From: an uncultured Rubritalea sp.
GTDB lineage: Bacteria > Verrucomicrobiota > Verrucomicrobiia > Verrucomicrobiales > Akkermansiaceae
Direction: 5' to 3'
NCBI GenBank assembly: GCA_937132085.1
Contig: CAKZNV010000202.1
Span: 1-61,955 of the forward strand
Length of the DNA: 61,955 nucleotides
The stretch's first letter is position 1, and every line of letters begins with the position of its first letter. Positions 23,811-38,367 of this stretch are shown here, one piece after another. A model generated the notes under the pieces. It made no database searches, was not told the DNA's origin, and saw only the letters and a list, made by a program, of their open reading frames with translations. Both the position numbers and the translations under genes were made by a program.

Positions 23811-25316
23811 ATGAATTTCACAGACATATTTAAAGGAGTAGATTTACAGAATAAAGCGGTAAGTCGTAGACAATTCTTCAGGCAAAATGCGATGGGTCTA
23901 GGCGCTGCAGCATTGGCATCGATGATTCCTAAAGAGCTGATGGCAGCTGGTGGCGGCATGATTCCGGGGCTGCCGCATTTTGCCCCTAAGGCGAAACGTG
24001 TGATCTATATCTCGCTTATTGGTGCTCCTTCACAGTTCGAGACATTCGATTACAAGCCGAACCTTAAGAAGGAATTTAAGAAGAACATCAAAGACTATTT
24101 GGTGGCATCTGGTCAGAGATTGACGGGGATGACTGCCAGTCAAGGGTCGTTCCCAGTAGCTCCATCGTTTGTGGATTTCAAGCAACACGGTGAGTCTGGC
24201 ATGTGGGTCTCAGACCTGCTGCCGCATACAGCGAAAGTGGCTGATGATATCTGTCTGATCAAGTCAATGCACACAGATGCGATCAATCATGAACCTGCGA
24301 ATCAGCTCATCTACACGGGGAACATGCAGAGTGGTAAGGCATCGATGGGCTCATGGCTGTCTTATGGTCTTGGTTCACTCAATGAAGATTTACCGACATT
24401 TTGTGTGCTGCATGCTCAACATTCTAGCCCATTCTCCAATGTGCAGGCGATCTCTAACAGACTATGGAATTCCAGCTACCTTCCCGGGAAGCACTCTGGA
24501 GTAAATTTACGCTCTTCAGGTGATCCTGTTCTCTTCCTAAAGGACGCTCCAGGTATTGACCGTGAAATGCGTAGATCGATGCTGGACGGACTCTCTGGGC
24601 TGAACCAGAAGACTCTAGAACATGTCGGTGACCCAGAAATTCAAACACGAATCCAGCAATATGAAATGGCTTACCGCATGCAGATGTCGGTGCCGGAGCT
24701 TACTGATATGAGCAAGGAATCTGAAGCTACGTATGACCTCTATGGGCCAGACTCTAAGAAGCGGGGATCATTTGCTGCCTGTGCCTTGATGGCAAGACGT
24801 CTGGCTGAGCGTGGTGTTAGATTTACGCAGATTTTCCACCGAGGCTGGGATGCTCACGGCAACCTACCTAGAGACATGAAGGCGCAGTGTGGAGATATTG
24901 ACCAAGGTTGCTACGGACTTATTCAGGATCTAAAACAACGTGGAATGTTAGAGGATACTCTGGTGATCTGCGGCGGTGAATTTGGTAGAACAGTTTACTC
25001 ACAAGGTCAGCTTACTGAAACGAACTACGGACGTGACCACCACCCAAGAGCATTCTCACTCTGGCTTGCAGGAGCAGGAGTCAAAGGAGGCACAACTTAC
25101 GGTGATACGGATGACTATTCATTTAACATCACGACACCAGATCAGAAGGTGCATGTTAGAGATCTACACGCTACTATTCTGGAGCGCTGTGGACTAGATC
25201 ATCACAGGTTATCATTTGGCTACCAAGGCCTAGAGCAAAAGCTCACAGGAGTAGAGCCAGCAAGAGTGGTCACGGATATTCTAAAATCCAGTGATTATAA
25301 AAACAAGCTGCACTAA
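23811..25316 (+). CDS. Tat-exported DUF1501 protein
   Basis: The 501-residue protein starts with a twin-arginine signal (SRRQFFRQNAMGLGAAALAS). It carries the DUF1501 domain, an alkaline-phosphatase/sulfatase-superfamily relative, with WDAHGNLPRDMK, LVICGGEFGRT and RDHHPRAFSLWLAGAGVKGG as metal-site-like motifs. It starts four bases after the DUF1549/1553 gene, so the two are certainly co-expressed and likely form one exported complex, with the haem protein as partner. Hydrolase activity is predicted from the fold only. Confidence 0.92.
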   Translation: MNFTDIFKGVDLQNKAVSRRQFFRQNAMGLGAAALASMIPKELMAAGGGMIPGLPHFAPKAKRVIYISLIGAPSQFETFDYKPNLKKEFKKNIKDYLVASGQRLTGMTASQGSFPVAPSFVDFKQHGESGMWVSDLLPHTAKVADDICLIKSMHTDAINHEPANQLIYTGNMQSGKASMGSWLSYGLGSLNEDLPTFCVLHAQHSSPFSNVQAISNRLWNSSYLPGKHSGVNLRSSGDPVLFLKDAPGIDREMRRSMLDGLSGLNQKTLEHVGDPEIQTRIQQYEMAYRMQMSVPELTDMSKESEATYDLYGPDSKKRGSFAACALMARRLAERGVRFTQIFHRGWDAHGNLPRDMKAQCGDIDQGCYGLIQDLKQRGMLEDTLVICGGEFGRTVYSQGQLTETNYGRDHHPRAFSLWLAGAGVKGGTTYGDTDDYSFNITTPDQKVHVRDLHATILERCGLDHHRLSFGYQGLEQKLTGVEPARVVTDILKSSDYKNKLH

Positions 25317-25366
25317 ATATCTGCTAGGCAGTGACAGGATTTAGCGTTACTACTAGCGGCGTAGCT

Positions 25367-26014
25367 ATGACTATTCTTATTACAGCTGGGCCAACTCGAG
25401 AGCCTATTGATCCCGTCCGTTATTTATCTAACAGGTCGTCTGGGAAAATGGGCTATGCTCTCGCAGATGTGGCGGCTGGTCATGACAATAGAGTGATCCT
25501 CGTCTCTGGCCCTACAGATATCAATGTCCCAGATAATGTGGATTTCATCCCAGTGGAGACTGCTGAGGAAATGTATCTGGCGGTGGAAAAGTATATTAAC
25601 AAAGCTGATGTGGCTATTTTCGCAGCAGCAGTCGCTGACTACACTCCTGAGACTGTGGTGGATCAGAAGATCAAGAAATCTGATGATACGCTGAGCTTGA
25701 AGCTCGTCAGAACGAAGGATATTTTAGGTTCCGCTAGAGAAGTATTTGGCTTCGATGGTGTGCTGGTAGGTTTCGCCGCTGAGACTGAGAATGTGCTGCA
25801 GAATGCGAGAAAGAAGCTGCTTAAGAAGCAATGTGACTTCGTGGTTGCGAATGACGTTTCACGTAGCGATATCGGGTTTAGCTCGGATGAAAATGAAGTC
25901 ACACTCGTTTTCAAAGACCACAATGAAGCACTGAGTAAAGCCGACAAACATGAGATCGCTCATGGCATCATTCATAAAGCGAGTGATCTAAAAAATTTAA
26001 AATTAAACAACTAA
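25367..26014 (+). CDS. coaB: Phosphopantothenate-cysteine ligase, stand-alone CoaB
   Basis: CoaB joins cysteine to 4'-phosphopantothenate in coenzyme A synthesis. The 215-residue protein is only the C-terminal half of the usual CoaBC fusion. It starts at the domain signature ILITAGPTREPIDPVRYLSNRSSGKMG and includes AAAVADYTP, the KIKK segment and the FAAETE motif. The ATG at 25367 begins exactly at the domain; an upstream GTG would add 12 non-conserved residues. No coaC decarboxylase is adjacent, so it must be encoded elsewhere. The next gene follows after 15 bases, so an operon with the inositol monophosphatase is likely. Confidence 0.93.
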   Translation: MTILITAGPTREPIDPVRYLSNRSSGKMGYALADVAAGHDNRVILVSGPTDINVPDNVDFIPVETAEEMYLAVEKYINKADVAIFAAAVADYTPETVVDQKIKKSDDTLSLKLVRTKDILGSAREVFGFDGVLVGFAAETENVLQNARKKLLKKQCDFVVANDVSRSDIGFSSDENEVTLVFKDHNEALSKADKHEIAHGIIHKASDLKNLKLNN

Positions 26015-26029
26015 TAATCCATTAAACAT

Positions 26030-26779
26030 ATGAAACCAATCGACGTAGCAGTAAAGGCAGCCCATGCAGCAGGGGAACTTCTAAGAGCCAATTTCGGCTG
26101 TGCGCTTAAAGTGGATGAAGCATTACAGCACGATCTTAAACTAGCGCTCGATAAGGAATCTCAAGACCTCATTTTTGGGATCTTGTCAGAAAGCTTTCCT
26201 GATCATGCTCTCTACGGTGAAGAAGGAATCGGTGGAAACCAAGACTCAGATTATCAATGGATCGTTGATCCGATCGATGGCACTGTGAACTTCTTTTATG
26301 GTATACCACACTACTGTGTTTCGATCGCTCTGAGACATAAGGAAGACATCATCGTGGGTGTGATTTACGACCCATCAATGGATGATCTCTGGACAGTAGA
26401 AAAAGGAGGTAAACCGTATCTCAATGGTAAAGAAATCTCAGTCAGTAGTCGCACCAAGTTGGAGGAATCTATCCTCTATGTAGGCTGTGGTAAGACTGAG
26501 AACTCACTGGAAAAAGGTTTAGAAAGATTCAAAAAAGCATCTCTCAGAGCTCGAAAGATGCGCATGATGGGATCGGCGGCACTCGGTATGGCATATATCG
26601 CTACCGGCAGACTCGACGCCTACGTAGAATCAAGAATTTCCCTCTGGGACATCGCCGCAGGTCAACTCCTCGTGGAAGCAGCAGGTGGCAGCACGACTCT
26701 AACACCACACCCAACGGCACCAGATGTCTGGGGAATCGTTTCAAGCAACGCTAAGATCCCAATCGAAGAGATTCTGTAA
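26030..26779 (+). CDS. Inositol monophosphatase family protein (SuhB-like)
   Basis: This 249-residue Mg-dependent phosphatase belongs to the IMPase/FBPase/CysQ superfamily. The metal-binding motifs are complete: GEEG (about 63-66), WIVDPIDGTVNF (about 82-93) and SLWDIAAGQLLVEAAGG near the C-terminus. The substrate may be inositol phosphate, histidinol phosphate or PAP; sequence alone does not decide. It lies between coaB and a low-molecular-weight phosphatase with short gaps. Confidence 0.92.
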   Translation: MKPIDVAVKAAHAAGELLRANFGCALKVDEALQHDLKLALDKESQDLIFGILSESFPDHALYGEEGIGGNQDSDYQWIVDPIDGTVNFFYGIPHYCVSIALRHKEDIIVGVIYDPSMDDLWTVEKGGKPYLNGKEISVSSRTKLEESILYVGCGKTENSLEKGLERFKKASLRARKMRMMGSAALGMAYIATGRLDAYVESRISLWDIAAGQLLVEAAGGSTTLTPHPTAPDVWGIVSSNAKIPIEEIL

Positions 26780-26831
26780 TTTAGAGCAAACTGTTAGACC
26801 AGATTTAAACATATACATTAGGAGTAAAGAC

Positions 26832-27317
26832 ATGTCAGAAAAGAAAGTATTATTCGTATGCACAGGAAACACTTGCCGAAGCCCGATGGCTGAAGGTTTT
26901 TTCCGTAAGCTAGTAGAGGAAGAAGAGTCTGTTCAAGTGCTCGGAAGTGCTGGTGTGGCGGCGTATCCAGGGGATTTGATCAGTAAGGAAACTGATGACT
27001 TACTAAAATCAAAGGGTGCTGAGTTAGCTGGCTTTAGAAGCCGTGCGGTGGATGAGAAGATACTCAGTGAAGCAACTCATGTCTTCGCTATGACCGAAAG
27101 CCATCTCGATATGTTAGTGGGATCATTCCCAGCCTACGAAGACAAATGCTACCTAGTTTGTGACTTTATAGAGCTTAACGGGGAAGTCGGAATCGATGTT
27201 CCAGATCCAATCGGCCAAGGCCCAAGAGCTTATCAAATGGTAGCTCAAGTGTTCGGCCATGCTCTGCCTGCCTTGCTAGAATTTATTAAGCAGACGGATC
27301 AAGGAGAGGAAGAATAA
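26832..27317 (+). CDS. Low molecular weight protein-tyrosine phosphatase
   Basis: The 161-residue protein has the LMW-PTP P-loop CTGNTCRS (Cys10 to Ser17) and the general-acid Asp in DVPDPIGQG near residue 127. An AGGAG ribosome site lies directly upstream of the ATG at 26832; a longer frame starting inside the preceding gene is rejected. The family includes tyrosine, arginine-phosphate (YwlE) and arsenate reductase members. The residue after CTGN in the loop is Thr, as in arginine phosphatases such as YwlE (CTGNTCRS), so a protein-arginine phosphatase role is possible. Confidence 0.92.
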   Translation: MSEKKVLFVCTGNTCRSPMAEGFFRKLVEEEESVQVLGSAGVAAYPGDLISKETDDLLKSKGAELAGFRSRAVDEKILSEATHVFAMTESHLDMLVGSFPAYEDKCYLVCDFIELNGEVGIDVPDPIGQGPRAYQMVAQVFGHALPALLEFIKQTDQGEEE

Positions 27318-27325
27318 ACTAAGCT

Positions 27326-27454
27326 ATGAAAAGTATTTTAACGCTTAGTTTCATAATTAGCTTTATGGGAGTTGTATTAGCCATGCTATGCAGGATAAAG
27401 CATCCCACTGCTGGAATAGCGACTTGCACTGATTTTCAAGGAGGAGTCTGCTAA
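27326..27454 (+). CDS. Tiny membrane peptide, first of a coupled pair
   Basis: The 42-codon frame starts 8 bases after the phosphatase stop. It has one membrane helix (about 4-21, SILTLSFIISFMGVVLAM) and a Cys-containing tail ending GGVC. Its stop overlaps the start of the next small gene (TAATG), a coupling arrangement typical of real genes. No family is recognised. Confidence 0.5.
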   Translation: MKSILTLSFIISFMGVVLAMLCRIKHPTAGIATCTDFQGGVC

Positions 27455-27672
27455 TGCGAAACTTTTTTCTTCCATCCATGGATGACGTGAGTGTGAGTAG
27501 ATTAATATTTAGCTTATTGATTCCTTGCATTGGCTCTATGAGCCTATTGATTCATGCATTGTTGCAAAATACCTTAGCCCCAGGGTTTGTGATATTGGCT
27601 GTAATCGCAATACTCGTTCAGTGTGTATGTTTGTTTTGTCTGTTAATTATTCTTTATAGAAGACTTAGGTGA
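27454..27672 (+). CDS. Small two-helix membrane protein
   Basis: The 72-residue protein has two predicted membrane helices (about 18-36 and 43-66) and a basic C-terminal tail. The ribosome site GGAGGAG (27440-27446) is the strongest in the region and lies inside the preceding 42-codon frame, which supports translation of both. No named family is recognised; the second helix is rich in Cys and Leu. It probably ends the coaB-phosphatase transcription unit. Confidence 0.6.
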   Translation: MRNFFLPSMDDVSVSRLIFSLLIPCIGSMSLLIHALLQNTLAPGFVILAVIAILVQCVCLFCLLIILYRRLR

Positions 27673-27756
27673 TATACCTCTCGGCGAAGGAGTGGGGCAG
27701 ATAAAGTTCAATTAGATCTCATGTTACATGAAGCATACAAAATAACCCTAAGCTCA

Positions 27757-27780
27757 AAAACTTAGTCTTGGCTAAGTTTT
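27757..27780. promoter_or_regulatory. Candidate DtxR/TroR operator palindrome
   Basis: AAAACTTAG, six bases, then CTAAGTTTT form a perfect 9+6+9 inverted repeat. The core TTAG-N6-CTAA fits the DtxR/MntR-type palindrome pattern. It ends two bases before the likely -35 box of the metal-uptake operon, whose last gene is a DtxR-family regulator. The half-site CTAAGTTTT recurs at 33204-33212, before that regulator. Confidence 0.6.
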
Positions 27781-27782
27781 GT

Positions 27783-27811
27783 TTGACAGATGTATTTTTT
27801 GAGTCTAGAAA
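27783..27811 (+). promoter_or_regulatory. Likely promoter of porin-metal uptake operon
   Basis: A perfect -35 box TTGACA (27783-27788), a 17-base spacer and a fair -10 box TAGAAA (27806-27811) lie 41 bases before the porin ATG. The candidate operator abuts the -35 box upstream. Confidence 0.5.
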
Positions 27812-27851
27812 AAGTCTCAACGAGACGCACAACGTCCGAAACGATATCGAA

Positions 27852-29009
27852 ATGAACAACAACGTATTAATTTACTCACTATCACTAGGCTTAATTGGAT
27901 CTGTTATAGCGGCACCTAGTTTACCACCTTACCTCTCAATTGGAGGTGAATACACACATGAACTCACTGCAGTTCTGGATGGAGGAATCAACCAACGCTC
28001 TAGTCATAGAGAGCTTCTGGTGCTCGAAGCTGAGCTTGACCTAGAGAAGTTCCTAGGCATTAAGAACTCCACACTTTTTGCACAATTCCAACACGCAACC
28101 ACAGAAAAAGGTGGAACACTTGACGCTGGTGACCTCCAAGCATACTCAAACCTTGAAGTAGGAAGTTCAATCGATGAACTCTACGAATTTTGGTATCAAC
28201 AAACCTTCTTCAATGAAAAGTTACGAATTAAAGTAGGCAAAGTTGACGCTAACTCAGAGTTCAACTTTGTTGATGTAGCGGGTGGATTTGCCAACTCATC
28301 AGCTGGCTTCTCTCCTACTATCTTCGCTTTCCCAACTTACCCGAATCCTGCCATGAGTGTGCAAGCATTCTGGACATTCGAAAAGCAGAACCTCACATTA
28401 GGATATGGTCTCTATGATGGATCCGCTACTGTTGATGGAGTTCAAACTGGCCGCTACGGTCCATCTACCTTCTTCTCAAGTGATCAGTCGGACGACTACT
28501 TTCACATCCTTCAACTTGAGAGATCTTGGGACAAGGTGAATAACATGGGAGCAGGTAGAGCGTCGATTGGTGTCTGGCATCACGATGGTGAATTCACCAC
28601 ATTTGATGGCGCCACAGACCGCGGAACCTATGGTGGATTCTTCACTCTAGAGCAACAATTCACTGGCAACAGCGAAGAACAAGGTGTCTTTGGTTTCTTC
28701 CAATATGCGTGGGCTGATGAAGATGTTTCTGAAGTAGCGCAGCACATTGCTGGTGGTGTTGTCTTCCGAGGTAATGGCATCACACGATCTGGCGACGAAG
28801 CTGGACTCTACGTTACACATGCTGACCTTTCAGACGTAGCTGCTGCAGGATTTACTAAAAATGAAACTGCTATCGACGCCTACTACAACATTCAGTTTAA
28901 TAGCAACTTCGCACTCAAACCTGAACTTCAATACATTCTTTCCCCATCAGGCAGCGCTACAGTGGACGATGCATTCGTTGCTGGAGTCAGAGCCATATTC
29001 ACATTCTAA
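27852..29009 (+). CDS. Outer-membrane porin, OprB-like
   Basis: The start at 27852 gives a 385-residue precursor with a clean signal peptide (MNNNVLIYSLSLGLIGSVIA-AP). The product has the alternating strands and the closing VAGVRAIFTF (terminal Phe) of an outer-membrane barrel. Segments such as GKVDANSEFNFVDVAGGFANSS and AFPTYPNPAMSVQAFW match the carbohydrate-selective OprB family. Its position as the first gene of a metal ABC operon, only 27 bases before the binding protein, suggests it delivers metal or a metal complex across the outer membrane. This role is contextual inference; OprB members mostly carry sugars. Confidence 0.82.
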   Translation: MNNNVLIYSLSLGLIGSVIAAPSLPPYLSIGGEYTHELTAVLDGGINQRSSHRELLVLEAELDLEKFLGIKNSTLFAQFQHATTEKGGTLDAGDLQAYSNLEVGSSIDELYEFWYQQTFFNEKLRIKVGKVDANSEFNFVDVAGGFANSSAGFSPTIFAFPTYPNPAMSVQAFWTFEKQNLTLGYGLYDGSATVDGVQTGRYGPSTFFSSDQSDDYFHILQLERSWDKVNNMGAGRASIGVWHHDGEFTTFDGATDRGTYGGFFTLEQQFTGNSEEQGVFGFFQYAWADEDVSEVAQHIAGGVVFRGNGITRSGDEAGLYVTHADLSDVAAAGFTKNETAIDAYYNIQFNSNFALKPELQYILSPSGSATVDDAFVAGVRAIFTF

Positions 29010-29036
29010 TTTATCAAACCAACCACATTTAATACT

Positions 29037-29978
29037 ATGAAATTACGCACATTCAGCAAACTAGTCGCTGCAGGAATTATCGCAGCCATCACTTCTTGTA
29101 AACCAACAGGAGGCACTAGCACTTGGAGCACAGACAAGGTAAAGGTTGTCACTACCACCACCATGATTACTGACTTGGTTCAGCAAATCGGTGGCGATAA
29201 AGTCGAAGTGAAAGGCCTCATGAATCACAAGATAGATCCACATGGTTACGAACAAACTCACGACGACACACAGGCATTAAATACTGCAGATGTCATTTTC
29301 TATAATGGTCTTCATCTCGAAGCAAAAATGCAAAAAGGTCTCGAACATAAAGCTAAAAAAGGAGACCTCGTCTACGCTCTCGGAGCAGTCGTCACAGAAG
29401 CTGAAATGCTTATGGACGGACACGAACATGACCCACACATCTGGGGTGACCCAACACTCTGGATACGCACCATCGATATCGTGCGTGACGGTCTCATCAA
29501 AGCTGATCCTAGCAATAAAGCAACTTACGAAGCCAACGCTGCTGCATACAAAATAGAACTCGAAACACTAAATACATGGGTTAAGAGCCGTGTAGAAGAA
29601 ATCCCAGCTCAGCAACGTGCTTTGGTCACTGCTCACGATGCATTTGGTTACTTCGCCAGTGCTTATGGTTTCGAGGTGCGAGGTCTTCAGGGGCTCTCAT
29701 CTGCTGATGAATCAGGCGTCAAAGCTGCTACAGACCTAGCTGACTACATCAAGTCAAAAGGAATCAAAGAGATCTTCGCTGAAAGCACTACCAATAACAA
29801 AGGTCTTGCTGAAGTAGCAAAACAGGCTGGAGTTAAAGTCAGCAACATCGAACTCTACTCAGATGCCTGTGGTCCAATTGGCGCCACACACACAGCTAAC
29901 GGAGAAAGCTACGATGTAGGCACTTACACAGGGATGATCAAACACAACGTCAATACGATTGTTGACGCTCTTAAGTAA
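29037..29978 (+). CDS. troA: Metal ABC transporter substrate-binding lipoprotein (TroA-like)
   Basis: This cluster A-I binding protein of 313 residues has a lipobox (AITSC, Cys21). The likely ligands are His69 (DPHGYE), His134 (DPHIWGDP), His200 (TAHDAFGYF) and Asp276 (YSDACGP). A His-His-His-Asp set at this spacing matches TroA of Treponema pallidum, which binds zinc and manganese; Mn-type PsaA/MntC has Glu in place of the third His. A short acidic and His segment (DGHEHDPH) precedes the second ligand. Gene order behind it copies troABCDR. Metal choice, Mn or Zn, is not settled by sequence; the MntR-like regulator favours Mn. Confidence 0.9.
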   Translation: MKLRTFSKLVAAGIIAAITSCKPTGGTSTWSTDKVKVVTTTTMITDLVQQIGGDKVEVKGLMNHKIDPHGYEQTHDDTQALNTADVIFYNGLHLEAKMQKGLEHKAKKGDLVYALGAVVTEAEMLMDGHEHDPHIWGDPTLWIRTIDIVRDGLIKADPSNKATYEANAAAYKIELETLNTWVKSRVEEIPAQQRALVTAHDAFGYFASAYGFEVRGLQGLSSADESGVKAATDLADYIKSKGIKEIFAESTTNNKGLAEVAKQAGVKVSNIELYSDACGPIGATHTANGESYDVGTYTGMIKHNVNTIVDALK

Positions 29979-30023
29979 ATCATTTATCACCTCCCATACT
30001 CCCCACACTAGTTTGACAACGCC

Positions 30024-30797
30024 ATGATACCAGCACTCGAAACACATGACCTAACCGTGACCTACCACAAGCGTCCTGTGCTCTACGGTGTCGATCTCGC
30101 AATCCCTGAAGGTAATCTTGTGGGAATTATTGGTCCTAACGGTGCTGGTAAATCTACTTTCATTAAATCCGTCATGGGAGTCATCCCAACAGTTGGTGGA
30201 TGGGTGAAAGTATTTGGAAAACCTCTAAAAGAAAATATCACTCGTGTCGGCTATGTTCCACAACGAGGCAGTGTCGACTGGGACTTTCCTGTCACCGTCA
30301 TGGATGTAGCTCTCCAGGGCACTTACGGTAAGCTCGGGATGTTCCGACGTGTGGGTAAAAAAGAACGCATGCTCGCAGAGGAAGCTCTCGATAAAGTGGG
30401 TATGCTCCCTTATGCAAAACGCCAAATTGGTAATCTCTCAGGTGGTCAACAGCAACGCGTTTTCCTCGCACGAGCGATTGCTCAAGATAGCGATCTCTAC
30501 TTCATGGACGAACCATTCGTCGGTGTTGATGCTGCTACTGAATCAGCCATCATCAGCCTCCTACAAGACATGCGAGAAAATGGTAAAACAGTCGTTGTCG
30601 TTCACCATGATCTGCAAACCGCTCCTGAATATTTTGACATGCTGATGTTGCTGAACATGCGGCTCCTCGCTTTTGGTAAAACGGAGGACGTCTTCACTAA
30701 AGAACTCCTTCAGAAAACCTACGGTGGAGGACTCACCATCCTCAGTGAAATCGCTACCGCAGCAGCAAAAGAAAACGTTAAAGCTTCACACGATTAA
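30024..30797 (+). CDS. troB: Metal ABC transporter ATP-binding protein (TroB-like)
   Basis: The 257-residue ATPase has Walker A GPNGAGKST (37-45), the Q-loop QRGSVDWDFP, the signature LSGGQQQR, Walker B LYFMDEPF and a switch His in VVVHHDLQT. It belongs to the MntA/ZnuC/TroB subfamily. It couples ATP hydrolysis to import by the two permeases encoded next. It lies 45 bases after the binding-protein gene and six bases before the first permease. Confidence 0.95.
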   Translation: MIPALETHDLTVTYHKRPVLYGVDLAIPEGNLVGIIGPNGAGKSTFIKSVMGVIPTVGGWVKVFGKPLKENITRVGYVPQRGSVDWDFPVTVMDVALQGTYGKLGMFRRVGKKERMLAEEALDKVGMLPYAKRQIGNLSGGQQQRVFLARAIAQDSDLYFMDEPFVGVDAATESAIISLLQDMRENGKTVVVVHHDLQTAPEYFDMLMLLNMRLLAFGKTEDVFTKELLQKTYGGGLTILSEIATAAAKENVKASHD

Positions 30798-30802
30798 TCC
30801 CT

Positions 30803-32107
30803 GTGATCATCGATACACTAGCCCTCACACTCATTCATAAAGCTTTGCTTGCCTCTGCTTTATTAGGATTGATGTGTGGTGTGCTCGGCACTTTTGTTGT
30901 TGTTAGACGTATCTCTCTCGTGGGTGATGCCATCTCTCATGCAGTCCTGCCTGGAGTGGTTCTAGGATTTGTGATCAGTAGCCAACTCGGTGACCCACGT
31001 AACCCTTGGATCATTTTTGGATCAGCCACTATCGTCGGATTGATCTCGATGATTGTCGTTAGACAAATCATTGCCACCACTCGGCTCAAAGCTGACGCCG
31101 CACTCGGTATTGTGCTCTCAGGATTCTTCGGTATTGGCCTATTCATGAAACGCAGCATGCTTGATCTCATGGACAGCGCAGGTGGTCTCGATTCCTTTCT
31201 CTTTGGCAATATGGCAACTATCAGCGAAACCGACCTTCAAGCTGTTGTGATTGTTGGAGTAGTTCTCACCACTCTCGTTCTCCTGCTGATGAGACCTTTC
31301 ATCCTCGTCAGTTTTGATAGTCTCTTCGCCGAAACCTTGGGTTACCCAGTTAAGCTTCTCAACCTAGTTTTTTACACACTTCTTACGATCACCATCGTGG
31401 TTTCACTTCAGGCAGTGGGAGTCGTATTGGTCTCCGCAATGCTCATTATCCCTGCCGCTACAGCTTATCTTCTCACTGATAGAAAGATACACATGATGCT
31501 GCTCTCTATGTTCTTTGGAGCTGGAGCTGGTGTTTCGGGGTCATTCATTTCTGCCTCTGTTTCATCCGCTAATATCGCCAACGGTGCTGCCATGACTCTT
31601 GTTGCAGCTTCGTTTTTTTTCATCACCTGCTTACTCGCTCCCAGACATGGTATTGTTGCAAAATGGCTCAAAAGTAAACGCCAACGCCATAAGGTCACAA
31701 CAGAGAACGCACTAAAAGCCATCTATAAGTTAGTCGAACCCACAGGCGACCCAAGATCTGCAATTACTATCAACGATTATCAAACAGAACGACGATTAGA
31801 AACAGCAGAAGCAAAACTTCAACTCAAAGCTCTGAAACAACAACAGCACATCGAATATCTCGATAAACAGCAACTCACCCTCACACCAGATGGGTTAAAA
31901 GTGGCTCAAACGGTAGTCAGAAATCACCGTCTATGGGAGCTTTACCTCACTAGCCAAGCAAACTATCAAGCCGACCACGTGCACGATGATGCTGAACTTA
32001 TCGAGCACTTGTTAGATGAAGAAACAGTTCGTCAGTTAGAAGCGGAACTCAATTTCCCTACCACTGACCCTCACGGTATGCCAATCCCACGACCAGAAGC
32101 AAGCTAA
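30803..32107 (+). CDS. troC: Metal ABC permease fused to a DtxR-like regulatory domain (TroC-like)
   Basis: Residues 1-290 form an ABC-3 family permease with about eight membrane helices and the conserved RRISLVGDAISHAVLPGVVLGF segment. The last 135 residues are soluble. A predicted winged-helix part (TTENALKAIYKLVE... to LTLTPDGLKVAQTVVRNHRLWELYL) is followed by HVHDDAELIEHLLDEE, which resembles the metal-binding/dimerisation domain of DtxR/MntR. The protein has 434 residues; ordinary permeases have about 280-300. The cytoplasmic tail could sense metal and gate transport. GTG at 30803 is the start, six bases after troB. Confidence 0.9.
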   Translation: MIIDTLALTLIHKALLASALLGLMCGVLGTFVVVRRISLVGDAISHAVLPGVVLGFVISSQLGDPRNPWIIFGSATIVGLISMIVVRQIIATTRLKADAALGIVLSGFFGIGLFMKRSMLDLMDSAGGLDSFLFGNMATISETDLQAVVIVGVVLTTLVLLLMRPFILVSFDSLFAETLGYPVKLLNLVFYTLLTITIVVSLQAVGVVLVSAMLIIPAATAYLLTDRKIHMMLLSMFFGAGAGVSGSFISASVSSANIANGAAMTLVAASFFFITCLLAPRHGIVAKWLKSKRQRHKVTTENALKAIYKLVEPTGDPRSAITINDYQTERRLETAEAKLQLKALKQQQHIEYLDKQQLTLTPDGLKVAQTVVRNHRLWELYLTSQANYQADHVHDDAELIEHLLDEETVRQLEAELNFPTTDPHGMPIPRPEAS

Positions 32108-32109
32108 CC

Positions 32110-33069
32110 ATGGACACTGTATTACTCCAACTCGATGCCTTCCTCAGCCGCCCATTTCAGGGCGACGATAGTGGCTTATGGTATGTCCTCATGGCATTCT
32201 CCGTCGCTCTTCCTTGTTCATTACTTGGTTGCTTCTTGCTTCTTCGTCGCATGGCTCTCGTTGGTGATGCTATCAGCCACTCTGTGCTGCCAGGCATTGT
32301 GATAGCTTACCTCATCGTCAAGGACCTCTCTTCTCCATGGCTACTCTTCGGAGCTGGAGCTACTGGCATGTTAGTCACAGTGCTGATCGAGATGATTCAC
32401 TCCAAGACCAGAGTCAAACAAGATGCTGCGATCGGGATTTCATTCACCACGCTTTTTGCTCTTGGTATTCTACTCGTCTCCCTGTTCACACGTAATGATC
32501 ATATTGATGCCGATTGCATCATCAGTGGTGAACTCACCCACATTATCTACTATGAAGCATTAGAACTGTTTGGGAAAGAGGTGCCCATGCCGCTGATCAC
32601 TTCTACTATTGTTGCTATTGGTGCCATTGGTGCCATCATCGTGTTTTACCGCCTTCTCATGCTAAGCTCATTTGATGCAGGGCTAACAGCATCCTTTGGT
32701 ATTAATCCAAAAGTAGTTCACTACCTCCTCATGGCTGTTTTATCACTCGTCGTAGTTACCTCATTCCGAGCTGTTGGTGCCATTCTAGTCATTGCTCTTC
32801 TCATTATTCCTGCCGCCAGTGCTTACCTTTGCACACATCGTCTCAAAACAATGTTATTACTCTCTGGTATTCATTCTGCAATTTCGTCACTTGCTGCGAT
32901 GTATATTTATGTCAATTTTGAATGTTCGATTGCTTCCGCCATGGTCGTCGCAGGTCTTTTGCTCTTTATTGTTGCCTGGCTATTCGGTCCAGTGGACGGA
33001 CTGGTCTGGAAATGGAAACGTCGATATTTTCGCTCCGAAAGCTATGACTATGGGGAAGTCGATCACTGA
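32110..33069 (+). CDS. troD: Second metal ABC permease (TroD-like)
   Basis: The 319-residue ABC-3 family membrane protein has about eight helices and the hallmark RRMALVGDAISHSVLPGIVIAY near the N-terminus. It pairs with the fused permease as a heterodimer, as in troCD. Unlike its partner, it has only a short basic tail (KWKRRYFRSESYDYGEVDH). It starts two bases after the preceding stop. Confidence 0.94.
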   Translation: MDTVLLQLDAFLSRPFQGDDSGLWYVLMAFSVALPCSLLGCFLLLRRMALVGDAISHSVLPGIVIAYLIVKDLSSPWLLFGAGATGMLVTVLIEMIHSKTRVKQDAAIGISFTTLFALGILLVSLFTRNDHIDADCIISGELTHIIYYEALELFGKEVPMPLITSTIVAIGAIGAIIVFYRLLMLSSFDAGLTASFGINPKVVHYLLMAVLSLVVVTSFRAVGAILVIALLIIPAASAYLCTHRLKTMLLLSGIHSAISSLAAMYIYVNFECSIASAMVVAGLLLFIVAWLFGPVDGLVWKWKRRYFRSESYDYGEVDH

Positions 33070-33118
33070 GTGGCGATTCCCTTGACAAGCGCCCAGAATC
33101 AAAGACATTACCTTTGTT

Positions 33119-33184
33119 ATGAAGAAACTTGGTAGCTTAGCTCTGGTCAGCATTAACCTAACTGGAGCTCTCAAAAACAAGTAA
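33119..33184 (+). CDS. Possible 21-residue leader peptide before troR
   Basis: A short frame MKKLGSLALVSINLTGALKNK opens 50 bases after troD. A TTGACA box (33082-33087) precedes it, but no good -10 box is visible. It could be a leader or small protein in the metal regulon, or chance. Confidence 0.2.
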   Translation: MKKLGSLALVSINLTGALKNK

Positions 33185-33199
33185 GATCCAATTATTTTT

Positions 33200-33212
33200 A
33201 AAACTAAGTTTT
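33200..33212. promoter_or_regulatory. Candidate TroR half-site palindrome
   Basis: AAAACTAAGTTTT is a 13-bp odd palindrome located 15 bases before the regulator start. It contains CTAAGTTTT, identical to the right arm of the operator at 27757-27780, suggesting autoregulation. Confidence 0.45.
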
Positions 33213-33227
33213 CCCAATATTTCCAAC

Positions 33228-33665
33228 ATGTCTAGAAAATCACTACGAACCAGCGGCTCAGTCGCTATGGATGACTACCTCGAGCAAATTCACCAGCTTA
33301 TCGAGGATGTCGGCTATGCTCGCCCCGTAGATATTTCTAAAAAACTGGGCATATCGCAAGCTAGTGTCACTAATATGCTAAAACGTCTCGACGAAGAAGG
33401 GCTGGTGAAACATGTCAAATATCGTGGCACCACGCTTACTGAACAAGGGAAGACCATCGCTAATGCCATCATCACGCGGCACAACACTCTCACTAGGTTC
33501 CTCAGATTATTCGATGTAAATGAGGATACAATCTACAGCGATGTAGAAGGTATGGAGCATCACGTGTCTGGCCACACATTAGCAGTGATCAATGCCTTGG
33601 CCAATGAACTTCAAGATAACAGCAAGCTTCTTGAAAAGGTGAAATCTACTATTTCGCTAAGCTAG
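33228..33665 (+). CDS. troR: DtxR/MntR-family metal-dependent regulator (TroR-like)
   Basis: This 145-residue regulator has an N-terminal winged helix (about 14-75; recognition helix ISQASVTNMLKRLDEEGLV) and a helical metal-binding/dimerisation domain with RHNTLTRFL and SDVEGMEHHVSG. The Asp and Glu in MDDYLEQI, the His in ITRHN, and the Glu-x-x-Glu-His of VEGMEHH correspond to MntR-type metal ligands. No SH3-like domain is present, as in MntR and TroR. It most likely represses the upstream operon when metal is plentiful, through the palindrome at 27757. Confidence 0.9.
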   Translation: MSRKSLRTSGSVAMDDYLEQIHQLIEDVGYARPVDISKKLGISQASVTNMLKRLDEEGLVKHVKYRGTTLTEQGKTIANAIITRHNTLTRFLRLFDVNEDTIYSDVEGMEHHVSGHTLAVINALANELQDNSKLLEKVKSTISLS

Positions 33666-33954
33666 CATATAGTCATTTAACACTCAAATTAGCAAATAAG
33701 TAGCCAGACGATCTATTGGTATTCATTTCATCAAGAAGTTCTATACCTCGATTCAGATCTTAGATCCTAATTTGGAAGGACTATAATGATGCAGTAGCTG
33801 ACACCTTCGGCGCCTTTATTTGTCTAGGGTCTATGTAGCAATGAGATCAAGGTGCATAAGTGTGGCTGTGTGACAACTTATTCTTGATGAATGCGTTGAG
33901 GTTGTTTTTTGTGAAAAAAAGTTGTAAAATTATATTAATTTGTTTTTGTGTGTC
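33666..33954. other. Intergenic region before first M6 protease
   Basis: About 290 bases without a gene. The last 60 are very AT-rich (GTTGTAAAATTATATTAATTTG) and probably carry the protease promoter, but boxes cannot be fixed. No clear hairpin or repeat is seen. Confidence 0.4.
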
Positions 33955-36900
33955 ATGAAAAAATTACTATTACTGGTATCGGTGCTTATCCTCTCACTAT
34001 CTGTGAGTCAGGGTGCTCCGTATGGAGGGGACGGAAAGCCTGTAAGTTTTAAACAGCCAAATGGAAAAAAAATCTCTCTGAGAATGTTCGGAGATGAATT
34101 TTATGCACGCACCGTGACTCTTGATGGCTATACAGTAGTTTATAGTGGCGCAGATAGGACATACTACTACGCACAGACAAATATGCTAGGTGATGAGCTG
34201 ATAGCTACTCAGCTAGTGGTAGGAGTGGATGAGCCTGCTGGGCTCGAAAAGCAGATTAAGTTGACTGCCGAAGCTAGGCAGAAGAAGTGGAGTGAGAAGC
34301 AAAAGAAATTTGATACTGGGCTGAGCAAGCGATGGGCGGAGAAAGTAAAGAAGGCTCAGAGAAGAAGAGAAATCAAGAGGGATATCCAGCTTAGGAAGAC
34401 TCTAGAGCTGGAGAGAGGTCTAAATAATCTAGGTGACGATGCTGCAGACGATGCAGATGCAGCTGCTCTGGCAGCGCCGGATGCAGCACCTGTAAACGGG
34501 AGCAAGGTGGGATTAACTATTTTGGTTCAGTTTCCAGAAGATGTTGATAATGCTGGGAATCCAGCTGTAAATTTCCCTACGACTCAGGCTAAAATTGAGC
34601 GTTACTGTAATGAGTTTGGTTATAATGATGATGGAAATTCAGGCTCTGTGAGAGATTATTTCACAGATCAGTCAGGTGGAGCATTTGATTATACAATGAA
34701 GGTAACTCAAGTGGTAACAATGCCTGAGCCGAGAGGTTATTATAACTGGAGTGACTATCCTGCGAATGCAAACCTCCGAGATAGTGGGCTAGCGGGGAAT
34801 ATGCTGGTTAGGGATGCTATTGCACAGCTAGTGAATGATGGCTATGATTTTTCAGGTCTCACGGTTGAAGGAGGTGAAGTAGTTTCAACGAATTTATTTT
34901 TTGCCGGCAATAGTTCAGGTGTGTGGTCTGAGGGTTTATGGCCTCACAGATGGGGGATGCTGATACTGGATAACCCCATTGTGTCAGTGGATGGAGTTAA
35001 TGTTAGAATTAACGACTACCAGATTACTAATCTCAGTAATGCTGCAGTGAAATTAGGCACATTTGTGCATGAGTCAGGGCATTTGATTACAGGTTTTCCT
35101 GACTTATATGATACCAACTCTGGAAATGGCTCTTCTAGTGGGCTCGGACGTCACTGCTTGATGGCTAGTGGAAACGCAAGTAATGGTCAAAGGACTCCTT
35201 CGCCGATTAATATCTACCTTAAAGATACAGTAGGTTGGGCAAATGTTATTGATATTTTAGCTACTGAATACCATGATGTCACCTTTAATAGTAGTGGGAA
35301 TAATGGCTACAGAATATACAAACCTGGTTCAAATAGCGAATATTTCATTTTTGAGAATAGAGCCTATGATGGAGGAAACGGAGATATATGGGCTCAGTTT
35401 GTGCCTGATAAGGGAATGCTCATCTGGCATATCGATGAAGCAGTTTCAGGAAATCAGAATCAACAGATGACCTCGGCTCAGCACTACAAGGTGTCTTTAG
35501 AGCAACAAGATGGTCAATTTGATCTAGAAAATAATTCTGATACAGGTGACTCAACAGATGCATATGATATCAATAGCGCAGAGTTTAATGATGCGAACAC
35601 ACCGAACGCAAACTGGTGGGATGGTTCAGCGTCTGGCATCAAGGTGAAGGCTAAGAGCGCAGCCGATGGAGGCTCTATGAATGTGGAATTTGGAGAAAAT
35701 CCTCTGTTACTAGTGCAGTCTCCCAATGGAGGTGAATTAGTTGATCCAAATGGTTCTTATGAAATAAAATGGTCTGGTGAAGTAGCGGGAAACGTGAGCA
35801 TTGATCTCTACAAAGCAGGCATGCTTGTGGAGAATTTAGGAACAGCGCTAGGAGTTAATCAATCGTTTATATGGTATGTTAACAATAAATACTACGTTTT
35901 AGGTGATGACTATTCTGTCAAAGTCACAAGTGTTTTGGATCCCGCTAAAACAGATGATAGTGATGGGAGTTTTAGCATTCATGAAGAGCTGTTTCCAGTA
36001 GGTTCTGTGATGCCTGTGGGATGGGTCAAACCTCCATCAGCCAATAAGGGCTGGGTAGTAGCGTCTGATAAAGCCTTTGGAGGTAGTAAGGTTAGCCTTT
36101 CCAATGATGATATAGACGATAACCAAACTGCTGATGTAGAGTATACTGGGGTCTTCGAAGCTGGCATGATCACCTTTCAAGCTGAGGCGTCATCAGAGCT
36201 AGGTTATGATGCTCTCACATTTTATATTGATGATGTGAAGCAGGTGCTCACTTCGGTTAGTTTCTCAGGCCTTAAGAGCTGGACTCTACAGAGTATACCT
36301 ATCACAGCAGGAGAACACACGGTGAGGTGGCGGTATGAGAAGGATGTCAGTGCTAGTAAAAATGATGATAAAGTATGGATAGATGATGTGTTTCTTCCTC
36401 TAGCACCAGTCGTTCCAGTCTTCACTAATCAAGGGCGGTCTTCTGCTAACCTAAGCACTTGCTTTTCTTCGAATGAAATCTGGGATGTTAATTATAAAAA
36501 TAGCTGGAGTGGTAGTGATTCGAATATGAGCATCGTAGCTGACGGTCTAAAGGTAGAAAACCCAACCACTGGTAAAATGTTAGACGGCACCAACTCTACT
36601 AAAGATGGCGGTGTGACGACTTGGTCTTCAGGCAATGATGGTGATTGGACTGTGGAGGCTAGAATCAAGTTCGACGAATGCTCTAATGGCTATGCGTTGT
36701 GGCTGGGCACAGGAACAAAGAGAATTATCGTAGAGATATATGATGATCATACTCAAGACTACGGTGGGGAATCATACAATGTGTCTCATTCATCTAATGA
36801 AGATGGCCAGTTTCACGTGTATAGAGTAGCTCATGATTCTACTAATGAGGTGTATCACGTGTTTAGAGATGGGGTGAGGATTACTCCTGTAGCTGGGGCT

Positions 36901-37422
36901 GTATATGATGCTACTGATAATGATGAGCGATTGCTCTTTGGGGATTATACAAGCAAGATTTTCGGCGATGATTACGATGTAACGATTGACTACATTTGCT
37001 ATGATCAGACCGGTGATTATTTGCCTATAGATTCGGATTTAGATGGAGATGGTATCCCTGACTACTGGGAGTATCTTCATTTTGACGATTTCACGGTTGG
37101 CAAGGTTGACGATGATGCAGACGGTGACGGAGTTACCACGAGCGGTGAGTTCGAGGTGGACAGTGATCCTACTACAGCCGACAATGGGCTAGAGGCTAAA
37201 GTAGAGCCTGAAGCAAATACAAATAACCTAATGGTGATGGTGCCAAGGTCTTCTGTGAATCGTCTATACACACTCTTTGAATCTTCAGATATGGGAGTGA
37301 ATGATCCATGGACTGAGGTCACAGGAGCGATCGATATAGCGGGGAATGGTGGAGACCTAGAGTTCTCTGTGATACCTTCTCTACAGAAGAAGTTTTATAG
37401 AATCAAAGTGAAAGTGCCGTAG
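33955..37422 (+). CDS. Secreted M6-family (immune inhibitor A-like) metalloprotease
   Basis: The 1,155-residue precursor has a signal peptide (cleavage near SQGA-PY) and an N-terminal propeptide-like domain (about 25-100, FYARTVTLDGYTVVY). A Lys/Arg-rich helical linker (about 105-150) and an M6 peptidase domain (about 175-560) follow, with the zinc motif HESGH (His372) and FPDLYDTNS directly behind. Then come a Kre9/KNH-like PNGGE module (about 595-670), a beta-sandwich (about 680-830), a LamG-like domain (about 850-1020), an acidic DLDGDGIPDYWEY repeat and the shared C-terminal module ending FYRIKVKVP. The ATG at 33955 is chosen over an upstream GTG. It likely degrades extracellular protein. 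A longer paralogue lies at 45506. Confidence 0.88.
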   Translation: MKKLLLLVSVLILSLSVSQGAPYGGDGKPVSFKQPNGKKISLRMFGDEFYARTVTLDGYTVVYSGADRTYYYAQTNMLGDELIATQLVVGVDEPAGLEKQIKLTAEARQKKWSEKQKKFDTGLSKRWAEKVKKAQRRREIKRDIQLRKTLELERGLNNLGDDAADDADAAALAAPDAAPVNGSKVGLTILVQFPEDVDNAGNPAVNFPTTQAKIERYCNEFGYNDDGNSGSVRDYFTDQSGGAFDYTMKVTQVVTMPEPRGYYNWSDYPANANLRDSGLAGNMLVRDAIAQLVNDGYDFSGLTVEGGEVVSTNLFFAGNSSGVWSEGLWPHRWGMLILDNPIVSVDGVNVRINDYQITNLSNAAVKLGTFVHESGHLITGFPDLYDTNSGNGSSSGLGRHCLMASGNASNGQRTPSPINIYLKDTVGWANVIDILATEYHDVTFNSSGNNGYRIYKPGSNSEYFIFENRAYDGGNGDIWAQFVPDKGMLIWHIDEAVSGNQNQQMTSAQHYKVSLEQQDGQFDLENNSDTGDSTDAYDINSAEFNDANTPNANWWDGSASGIKVKAKSAADGGSMNVEFGENPLLLVQSPNGGELVDPNGSYEIKWSGEVAGNVSIDLYKAGMLVENLGTALGVNQSFIWYVNNKYYVLGDDYSVKVTSVLDPAKTDDSDGSFSIHEELFPVGSVMPVGWVKPPSANKGWVVASDKAFGGSKVSLSNDDIDDNQTADVEYTGVFEAGMITFQAEASSELGYDALTFYIDDVKQVLTSVSFSGLKSWTLQSIPITAGEHTVRWRYEKDVSASKNDDKVWIDDVFLPLAPVVPVFTNQGRSSANLSTCFSSNEIWDVNYKNSWSGSDSNMSIVADGLKVENPTTGKMLDGTNSTKDGGVTTWSSGNDGDWTVEARIKFDECSNGYALWLGTGTKRIIVEIYDDHTQDYGGESYNVSHSSNEDGQFHVYRVAHDSTNEVYHVFRDGVRITPVAGAVYDATDNDERLLFGDYTSKIFGDDYDVTIDYICYDQTGDYLPIDSDLDGDGIPDYWEYLHFDDFTVGKVDDDADGDGVTTSGEFEVDSDPTTADNGLEAKVEPEANTNNLMVMVPRSSVNRLYTLFESSDMGVNDPWTEVTGAIDIAGNGGDLEFSVIPSLQKKFYRIKVKVP

Positions 37423-37442
37423 TGTTCTACGGTTCTCCTTAG

Positions 37443-37460
37443 CTAGCTATATATAGCTAG
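37443..37460. other. 18-bp perfect palindrome between convergent genes
   Basis: CTAGCTATATATAGCTAG sits between the protease stop and the dapA stop. It is self-complementary without a loop and AT-rich at the centre. It lacks T-tracts, so terminator function is doubtful. Confidence 0.5.
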
Positions 37461-37488
37461 TGGTAGATTGGTATAAATCTGCTGTAAG

Positions 37489-38367
37489 CTATACTAGCTT
37501 GTAGTCTCCGAGAGCTGATTTTAGTCTCTTAATGTTGTCGTCTTCCAGTCTGATGAGTGGAAGGCGGATTTCTTGCTGACAGAGTCCCATGAGGGCTACA
37601 GCTGCTTTGACTGGGACTGGGTTTGTGTCTAGCCCCATGAGTGCGTTCATGAGGTTTTCGTATTCGTCATGGATCGCTTGAGCTTTAGCTACGTCACCTG
37701 CGTTCATTGCTCGGACTAGGTCAGACATTGGTCTAGGGATGACATTTGAGGCCACGGATACGAGGCCAGATGCTCCACGCTTCATGAATTCTACTGTGAG
37801 TGGGTCATCGCCTGAGAGAATTGGGAAGCCGTCCGGTAACGCTGCTTTTAGAGCGTCGACACGGTCTGGATCTCCGCCAGCTTCTTTGATTGATTGAACC
37901 GTTGGACAGTCATTGGCTAGTCTAGCAGCTGTCTCAGGCTCAATGCAGACGACTGATCTACCTGGCACACTATAGAGCATGATTGGGAGATTTGTGCATT
38001 CTGCGATTGCTTTGAAATGCTGATAGAGGCCTTCTTGAGATGGCTTGTTGTAGTAAGGCGTGACCTGGAGAGTGGCGTCTACACCTAGCTTGGCAGCTTC
38101 TGTGGTGAGGTAGATAGCTTCGGTGGTAGAGTTAGCTCCGGTTCCAGCTATGACTAGAATTCTGCCAGCAGCTGCGTCCACTGCGATACGGATGATTTCT
38201 AGGTGCTCGCGTCTGTTGACGGTAGGAGATTCACCTGTAGTTCCTACGGGGACGATGCCTTCTACGCCACCTTCGACTTGTAGTTCGACGAGTTTGCGGA
38301 ATGCGGGTTCATCGATTTTGCCGTCTTTGAATGGAGTGATTATTGCGGTGAAAGTGCCTTGGAACAT
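37489..38367 (-). CDS. dapA: 4-hydroxy-tetrahydrodipicolinate synthase
   Basis: DapA condenses pyruvate with aspartate semialdehyde in lysine and diaminopimelate synthesis. The 292-residue TIM barrel starts at MFQGTFTAIITPF. It has the Thr pair in VGTTGES (Thr43, Thr44), Tyr132 in LYSVPGR and the Schiff-base Lys161 in QSIKEAGGD, so it should be active. A 63-residue upstream extension in the same frame is non-conserved and antisense to the next gene, so I reject it. It is divergent from the GGQ-protein gene and stands alone. Confidence 0.96.
   Translation of the reverse strand: MFQGTFTAIITPFKDGKIDEPAFRKLVELQVEGGVEGIVPVGTTGESPTVNRREHLEIIRIAVDAAAGRILVIAGTGANSTTEAIYLTTEAAKLGVDATLQVTPYYNKPSQEGLYQHFKAIAECTNLPIMLYSVPGRSVVCIEPETAARLANDCPTVQSIKEAGGDPDRVDALKAALPDGFPILSGDDPLTVEFMKRGASGLVSVASNVIPRPMSDLVRAMNAGDVAKAQAIHDEYENLMNALMGLDTNPVPVKAAVALMGLCQQEIRLPLIRLEDDNIKRLKSALGDYKLV

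Follow-up and report, generated by a model that had tools for sequence, protein, structure and literature searches.

A permease with a DtxR-fold tail in a Rubritalea metal import cluster: a conserved metal domain beside a drifted DNA-reading part

The import cluster and its fusion protein

The window analyzed here, meaning the whole stretch of 61,955 nucleotides from an uncultured Rubritalea sp. (assembly GCA_937132085.1, contig CAKZNV010000202.1), carries a metal import cluster at 27.7-33.7 kb on the forward strand. The cluster comprises a porin, a substrate-binding protein (SBP), an ATPase, a permease fused to a DtxR-like tail, and a second permease, followed by a separate MntR gene. The OprB-type porin (27852..29009; Pfam PF04966, 121.6 bits) likely starts at the ATG at 27852, as inferred from sequence; its listed TTG start (27768) falls within a predicted operator. 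Downstream lie a metal-binding protein of the ZnuA/TroA SBP family (29037..29978; PF01297, 259.6 bits), the ABC ATPase of the importer (30024..30797; PF00005), the fusion (30803..32107), and a tail-less second permease (32110..33069; PF00950, 166.8 bits). The top NCBIfam match of the 257-residue ATPase is the manganese protein MntA, below its cut-off, and no additional Pfam domain scored over cut-off in this protein, except an overlapping AAA_21 at the nucleotide-binding site. The stand-alone MntR-type repressor (33228..33665) has an intact helix-turn-helix (HTH), matching PF01325 (68 bits) as well as PF02742, and scores 133.6 bits against the NCBIfam MntR model PRK03902 (cut-off 138). The nearby MntR and these family matches suggest that the importer carries Mn(II) or Fe(II).

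A perfect palindrome, AAAACTTAG-TCTTGG-CTAAGTTTT, lies ahead of the porin (27757..27780, forward strand) and is presumed to be the MntR operator of the cluster. With zero mismatches, its arms (AACTTAG-N6-CTAAGTT) occur at no other position of the 4.46 Mb genome; if as many as two mismatches are allowed, 22 sites result, compared with 26 for a reversed control pattern. Directly after the operator, a promoter-like pair can be read from the sequence (27783..27811, forward strand), namely TTGACA (27783-27788) and TAGAAA (27806-27811) separated by 17 nt, though a stricter promoter scan did not list this pair and found fewer promoter-like sites than in shuffles. A search for riboswitches gave no Rfam match at gathering scores within 24000-38000. 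Both the window and one congener (L112:1382-2773) have the porin in first place within the cluster, with the operator ahead of it; this porin is possibly an outer-membrane metal channel. Adjoining mntR, at 33940-37422, is a gene for a secreted-looking protein of 1160 residues with an HESGH motif, presumably an M6-type metalloprotease.

The fusion gene (GTG start, 434 codons) encodes a membrane domain at residues 9-277 (30827..31633), which matches ABC-3 at 212 bits and resembles PsaBC in predicted fold (7kyp; Foldseek E 9.7e-17, 37% identity), and a metal-binding and dimerization domain at residues 361-430 (31883..32092), which matches Fe_dep_repr_C (PF02742) at 87.7 bits (cut-off 27). The Pfam model of the DtxR N-terminal HTH, PF01325, has no match in the window's tail at E 1. 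AlphaFold2, run on a 34-row alignment, nevertheless predicts a winged-helix part at residues 323-360 (31769..31882), with helices 323-330 and 334-346, the latter being the recognition helix, and strands 350-352 and 357-360, leading into the metal-domain helices; mean pLDDT for the full protein is 93. Modeled alone (pLDDT 89), the tail adopts a whole DtxR fold, which resembles DR2539 (8pw0; Foldseek E 1.2e-9) and superposes on DtxR 2qq9 with a VIA-align Z of 18.8 and an rmsd of 1.8 over 135 aligned residues.

Sequence matches and predicted structure together confirm that this gene encodes a PsaBC-type metal permease joined to a full DtxR-fold domain, i.e. winged helix plus metal/dimer domain. 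A first-pass annotation had described a TroC-like permease with a winged-helix and metal-binding tail, and Pfam, AlphaFold2, the superposition on DtxR, and recurrence in 128 distinct fusions all bear this out; the extension, given there as 135 residues, is present, but measures about 150 (285-434). It had also placed a separate DtxR-family repressor at the end of the operon. The gene is indeed separate, but it starts 158 nt past the second permease, has a palindrome of its own (AAAACTAAGTTTT, 33200..33212, forward strand), and in three congeners (G004, G006, and G010) lies distant from the fusion or on a different contig. A chance ORF or frameshift artefact was considered and is ruled out by the reading frame, the Pfam matches, the predicted fold, and the recurrence. 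In its permease fold (7kyp) and adjoining SBP and ATPase the system is similar to Mn/Fe importers of the PsaBC/TroCD type, from which it differs in that one of the two permeases in the window's cluster bears a DtxR tail. To our knowledge, neither PsaB nor TroC has such a tail.

Distribution, metal site, and drift within the tail

A contig scan with the window protein alone as query found no relative, while the tail alignment, used as query against species genomes, returned at least 548 confirmed matches. Among the best 80 of these, 79 belong to named Verrucomicrobiota or members of the phylum and one to a Candidatus Sumerlaeota MAG (L158). PF02742 was present in 57 of the 58 genomes of the relatives search, the window's own included, and in at least 129 of the 144 genomes of a phylum sample. 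We aligned 44 fusions from the fetched loci of relatives, where the usual order, if neighbors lie on the contig, is SBP-ATPase-fusion-permease. In total, 136 first-permease fusions were gathered, of which 128, the window's among them, are distinct after removal of 8 identical copies; the set of relatives and the set of named loci share some members (e.g. G010 and Rubritalea marina L118 are the same assembly). In an 80-row tree, which was midpoint-rooted and hence gives no direction, the first-permease tails all fall on one side of a branch with support of 99/95, and a branch of 99/94 groups them with 8 of 9 second-permease tails and sets this group apart from the FeoA-linked proteins and from MntR and DtxR of the stand-alone type; the remaining second-permease tail (L212) sits on a very long branch. 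The tail shares with DtxR, MntR, and IdeR the whole two-domain fold and the metal-domain ligands (nearest solved structures DR2539 8pw0 and DtxR 2qq9), but it is fused to a permease, is unrecognizable to PF01325, varies in length across its HTH and wing, and lies across the 99/94 branch from stand-alone MntR and DtxR.

Ligand columns were scored over the 128 distinct fusions, which divide into classes A (101), B (23), and C (4); we take the ligand roles and equivalents (H79, E83, H98, C102, E105, and H106) to follow DtxR/MntR numbering. In the window, the presumed ligands are H375, E379, H394, E398, E401, and H402, plus N302 on alpha-1. The H79 equivalent is His and the E83 equivalent Glu throughout (128/128), and the E105 equivalent is Glu in all 127 fusions with a letter at that position. 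Other positions vary by class: the H98 equivalent is Asp in class B and otherwise His; at the C102 equivalent, class A has Glu in 96 of 100 tails and Asp in 4, class B always has Asp, and class C has Glu; the H106 equivalent is Glu in class C and otherwise His; and the alpha-1 position is Asn in 95/101 of class A, His in 21/23 of class B, and Gln in class C. Every class A and B tail also has a Trp (W378 of the window protein), which the aligned MntR rows lack. PF02742 matches 24 of 24 tails in a first set and 76 of 76 in a second (which leaves out 3 of 79 tails having ambiguous letters). The comparison shows the tail's presumed metal-ligand positions and metal domain to be strongly conserved. 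The four class C tails (L088, L089, L090, and L091) carry the pattern VHQ..E.IEEIT.PEIA, with Glu at H106, no class A/B Trp, and a changed DPHG motif, and their putative metal site appears strongly diverged.

The tail is joined to the membrane domain by a linker at residues 284-303 (flanked by G283 and L304; 31652..31711), part of a helix predicted by AlphaFold2 to continue from the membrane exit into sensor alpha-1 (284-314) in the window protein. Linker length is 20 residues in 128/128 distinct fusions, and a pattern applied without alignment recovers this length in 101 of them. The stretch between the H79 and E105 equivalents is similarly uniform (25 residues in 127/128, the remaining one having 16), as against 21 different lengths, from 55 to 104 residues, between alpha-1 and the metal domain. 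Stand-alone proteins have only 3 lengths for that interval, 64-67 residues, among the 48 of 74 that fit a simple pattern, the other 26 being omitted from the comparison. Comparison and prediction show the sensor and permease to be joined in a fixed register by a linker of constant length, which the model has as helical in the window protein. Conserved ligands near the modeled cytoplasmic exit might also be expected of a metal buffer or hand-over site, in which the HTH would be a mere spacer, or of an assembly module, with no regulatory role in either case. We consider this quite improbable, as a buffer requires neither a fixed-length linker nor a complete DtxR-type sensor domain, and related plain permeases with MntR work without a fusion, from which the tail would not be generally needed for assembly.

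The DNA-reading part of the tail follows a different course. In 20 genomes that have both a class A fusion and MntR, mean pairwise identity in the recognition helix is 0.23 among tails and 0.76 among MntR proteins, whereas in the metal domain it is 0.80 and 0.68, respectively, giving HTH/metal ratios of 0.35 (0.31-0.40) for the tails and 1.00 (0.94-1.06) for MntR. The same holds where the regulator adjoins the fusion: at 11 loci with a full-length DtxR, recognition-helix identity is 0.38 for the tail against 0.75 for DtxR (metal domain 0.89 for both), and at 12 loci with MntR it is 0.22 against 0.59 (metal domain 0.80 against 0.52). The helix is unconserved even inside the genus, and is less variable in Opitutales tails (identity 0.38). 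PF01325 is found in 1 of the 24 tails of the first set (E 0.2) and 2 of the 76 of the second (best E 0.0047), compared with 20/20 in the MntR control. By comparison, then, most constraint on sequence and length is shown to be gone from the tail's putative DNA-reading helix and wing. The two features singled out for checking in the first-pass annotation, a winged helix and a conserved tail, give a mixed picture: the model does contain the winged helix, and conservation holds for the metal half of the tail but fails for its DNA-reading part. The tails retain two basic residues just ahead of the recognition helix (Arg in 17/20, then Arg or Lys in 20/20), which could contact DNA, and residual or relaxed DNA binding by the tail is possible, given that a winged-helix fold is still predicted.

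Operator sequences and their presumed readers

Of 21 class A relatives (the relatives-set fusions of this class, 24 in all, apart from the window, L099, and L036), 16 have the motif TTAG-N6-CTAA upstream of the SBP gene, and a TTGAC box follows closely downstream of the operator in 10 of 15 relatives inspected. Operators could be scored at 55 of the 80 named loci, the other 25 being dropped for want of a recognized SBP gene, less than 200 nt of upstream sequence, or an unclear regulator type. Where the genome encodes a short MntR, TTAG-N6-CTAA was found at 19 of 37 loci and TTTGA-N4-TCAAA at 0 of 37; where it encodes a full-length DtxR, the counts are 0 of 15 and 15 of 15, respectively; and three named loci without a stand-alone regulator have neither. 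The background across all 80 loci, 740 kb in total, is 26 TTAG-N6-CTAA and 24 TTTGA-N4-TCAAA sites. These counts are not independent, since regulator types are partly clade-bound, and a Fisher value of 1.4e-4 overstates their independence. The strict TTAG-N6-CTAA is missing near the SBP gene in 18 of the 37 MntR genomes, and one of these (L120) has a strict site 1.4 kb upstream, a position at which its counterpart L112, from a congener, carries the gene for the porin. Neither strict site was found at the class B or C loci L063, L067, L081, L086, L089, L090, L091, and L117, at locus L211, or at the two-tail loci L201, L203, and L204.

Tail class does not explain operator type, as classes A and B each occur with either operator. 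Class A tails co-occur with both, and class B tails are found with TTAG in short-MntR genomes (L062, L076, and L082) and with TTTGA at L079, L084, L206, L207, and L209, each with a full-length DtxR; the L079 genome has both regulator types, with the full DtxR as divergent neighbor. In fusion-less operons with a divergent MntR, the strict TTAG-N6-CTAA lies before mntR in 7 of 8 (L041, L044, L050, L056, L059, L078, and L083, but not L087), so that MntR goes with the same operator in the absence of a fusion; the same seven loci, from related families, have plain permeases plus MntR. Comparison of the loci shows that the predicted operator of the operon tracks the stand-alone regulator of the genome, MntR or DtxR, and not the tail. 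The drift of the recognition helix, the length variation of HTH and wing, and the match between operator and regulator make it well supported, at the level of sequence, that the tail is not the reader of the operator of its own operon. The 15/15 scorable full-DtxR loci with TTTGA-N4-TCAAA also amount to a ready operator prediction for this DtxR group. A full-length DtxR gene is divergent from the fusion operon at L164, L174, L176, L178, L179, L182, L183, L186, L194, L195, and L196.

Alongside the fusion, 71 of the 80 named genomes (the best 80 of at least 548 matches) encode a stand-alone protein of the DtxR family, with one further case unclear. This frequency and the conserved dimerization/metal domain are also what one would look for if the tail were a decoy, pairing with stand-alone MntR at the membrane through the dimerization domain, such that the amount or state of the transporter tunes repression. 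The class A tail is found, however, with two quite different partners, short MntR and full-length DtxR, and some fusions appear partner-less, with no stand-alone regulator detected in, e.g., G011 (92% complete) and G054 (96% complete); we judge such pairing to be rather improbable. Other genomes in which no stand-alone regulator was detected still have an operator: TTAG-N6-CTAA in G030 (84% complete) and the single-cell assembly G121, and TTTGA-N4-TCAAA in G039 (83% complete).

Fusions of this type are already known from Chlamydia trachomatis YtgC/CT069, or YtgCR, studied in 2011-2012 and later. The chlamydial tail is reported to be released and to confer iron-dependent repression of ytgABCD and trpBA, and orthologous permease-repressor fusions occur in 11 phyla per a review (PMC5599777, PMC7755916, PMC6504234). 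These accounts agree with the first-pass annotation that similar fusions exist in other phyla, and run against its statement that their function is not well described. In further excerpts, the role of the YtgC part in import is called unclear (PMC7755916), and a study of Waddlia ranks YtgC among transcription factors (PMC4989314). Both the chlamydial and the verrucomicrobial proteins combine an ABC-3 permease with a C-terminal DtxR-like domain in the order SBP-ATPase-fusion-second permease, and, among the traits considered for YtgCR-type fusions, the verrucomicrobial tails also have conserved metal ligands. In C. trachomatis, the released tail is reported to bind operators of both ytg and trpBA, and no other iron-dependent regulator is known, whereas the verrucomicrobial fusion has a drifted DNA-reading part and usually a separate DtxR-family gene, which the operator follows. 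Taking the chlamydial proteins by description, reading of the operator of its own operon is thus a trait that the verrucomicrobial tail appears to lack, and a plain YtgCR-like autoregulator was not adopted, given the HTH and operator tests.

A modified version of the chlamydial scheme would have the tail cut off to become a soluble metal-dependent regulator, with other targets or relaxed DNA specificity. The shared architecture and gene order, together with the cleavage and repression reported in the excerpts for chlamydial ytgABCD (PMC5599777, PMC7755916, PMC6504234), lend this version some weight, as do the predicted winged-helix fold and the retained basic pair. It is nonetheless unlikely in our view: the recognition helix is unconserved even between congeners, the HTH/wing has 21 lengths, the operator tracks another protein, and the linker is confidently modeled and constant in length, with no disordered stretch, which a release site would not require.

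A protein-level role for the tail

We hypothesize that the tail is a DtxR/MntR-type domain retained as a protein-level metal sensor and not as this operon's repressor, and that it probably serves to slow import when cytoplasmic Mn/Fe is high. This is the best reading of four features, namely the conserved metal ligands, the drifted DNA-reading helix, the operator that tracks the stand-alone regulator, and the constant 20-residue linker. When DtxR and MntR are activated, metal bridges alpha-1 and the metal domain. By analogy, at high cytoplasmic Mn(II)/Fe(II), metal might bridge N302 on alpha-1, the helix leaving the membrane domain, with E398, E401, and H402, while H375, E379, and H394 could form a second metal site. 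Bound metal would then shift or clamp the linker helix, or pair two tails, such that the transporter is slowed and a fast feedback on import is obtained, while MntR would shut off transcription at TTAG-N6-CTAA. Against this reading, the window's transporter has one tail, so that a second transporter or some other partner would be required to form a DtxR-like dimer, and the chlamydial precedent is a repressor that is released. The direct metal feedback on transport envisaged in the first-pass annotation finds indirect support in sequence, from the kept ligands, drifting helix, operators, linker, and two-tail forms described below, but none of the publications consulted shows metal in such a tail altering transport.

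Both permease genes are tailed in 8 of 18 fetched loci (L198-L205), all eight of them distant; contigs of this kind were chosen for their neighboring long frames, so that their number carries no frequency information. Seven of the eight genomes also have a full-length DtxR, and the eighth has a longer frame that includes this domain. Ten permeases from five of the two-tail loci all match ABC-3 and PF02742 (10/10), and none matches PF01325 at E 0.5. The first tail of L198-L205 is of class B type and the second is nearer to the class A metal motif (DHLH...DPHGK.IP in several). Such pairs are what one would predict for tails that work on the transporter and associate inside it; a single transporter could then hold a pair made of one tail from each permease subunit. 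More tentatively, and with rather more doubt than the sensor reading itself, we suggest that a DtxR-type repressor domain became a metal-operated brake or gate, with a rigid helix that is clamped and acts on the transporter instead of DNA; that the two-tail form, parallel or older, pairs as a DtxR-like heterodimer; and that a similar FeoA-joined switch may serve Feo import.

In the ABC importers MetNI and ModBC, the regulatory domain is located on the ATPase and has other folds. Trans-inhibition in these importers, as outlined in a review of transporter switching, involves a cytoplasmic domain that senses imported substrate and stalls the transporter, and the term 'DtxR' has 0 occurrences in that review (PMC10710835). 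The likeness to our proposal is confined to this logic of a substrate-sensing cytoplasmic domain stalling the transporter, as the regulatory domain here would be a DtxR fold on the permease and not on the ATPase. Searches of the open-access literature turned up no work in which a DtxR domain acts on a transporter.

The fusion type is thus already known through YtgCR, and what is new is the apparent loss of operator reading, the fixed linker, and the two-tail form. The verrucomicrobial set separates sensing, which is kept, from operator reading, which is apparently the task of another protein, and does so outside obligate intracellular growth. If true, the sensor reading would provide a case of a DtxR fold acting directly on a transporter, and would suggest re-examining the chlamydial protein, which might have two functions or represent an intermediate state.

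Domains of the DtxR type are linked to other iron-transport parts as well. PgMntR is described, in an excerpt, as a stand-alone MntR with twin C-terminal FeoA domains (PMC4805248); it resembles the tail in linking a DtxR-type metal domain to such parts, but is a regulator and not a permease tail. We also observed proteins that combine a DtxR metal domain with a pair of FeoA domains but have no PF01325 (L035:7438-8448, L068:5035-6048, and L109:5654-6778, with similar frames in L213, L214, and L215); those of L035 and L068 start with a hydrophobic, membrane-like stretch. These proteins are possibly the Feo counterpart of the permease tail. A plasmid search returned 1340 records, all of less than 60% identity. 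On four haloarchaeal plasmids (H1, H7, H23, and H24), a metal permease and a DtxR-type regulator are separate adjoining genes, a neighbor pair that possibly pictures the pre-fusion state and hints at the origin of the fusion.
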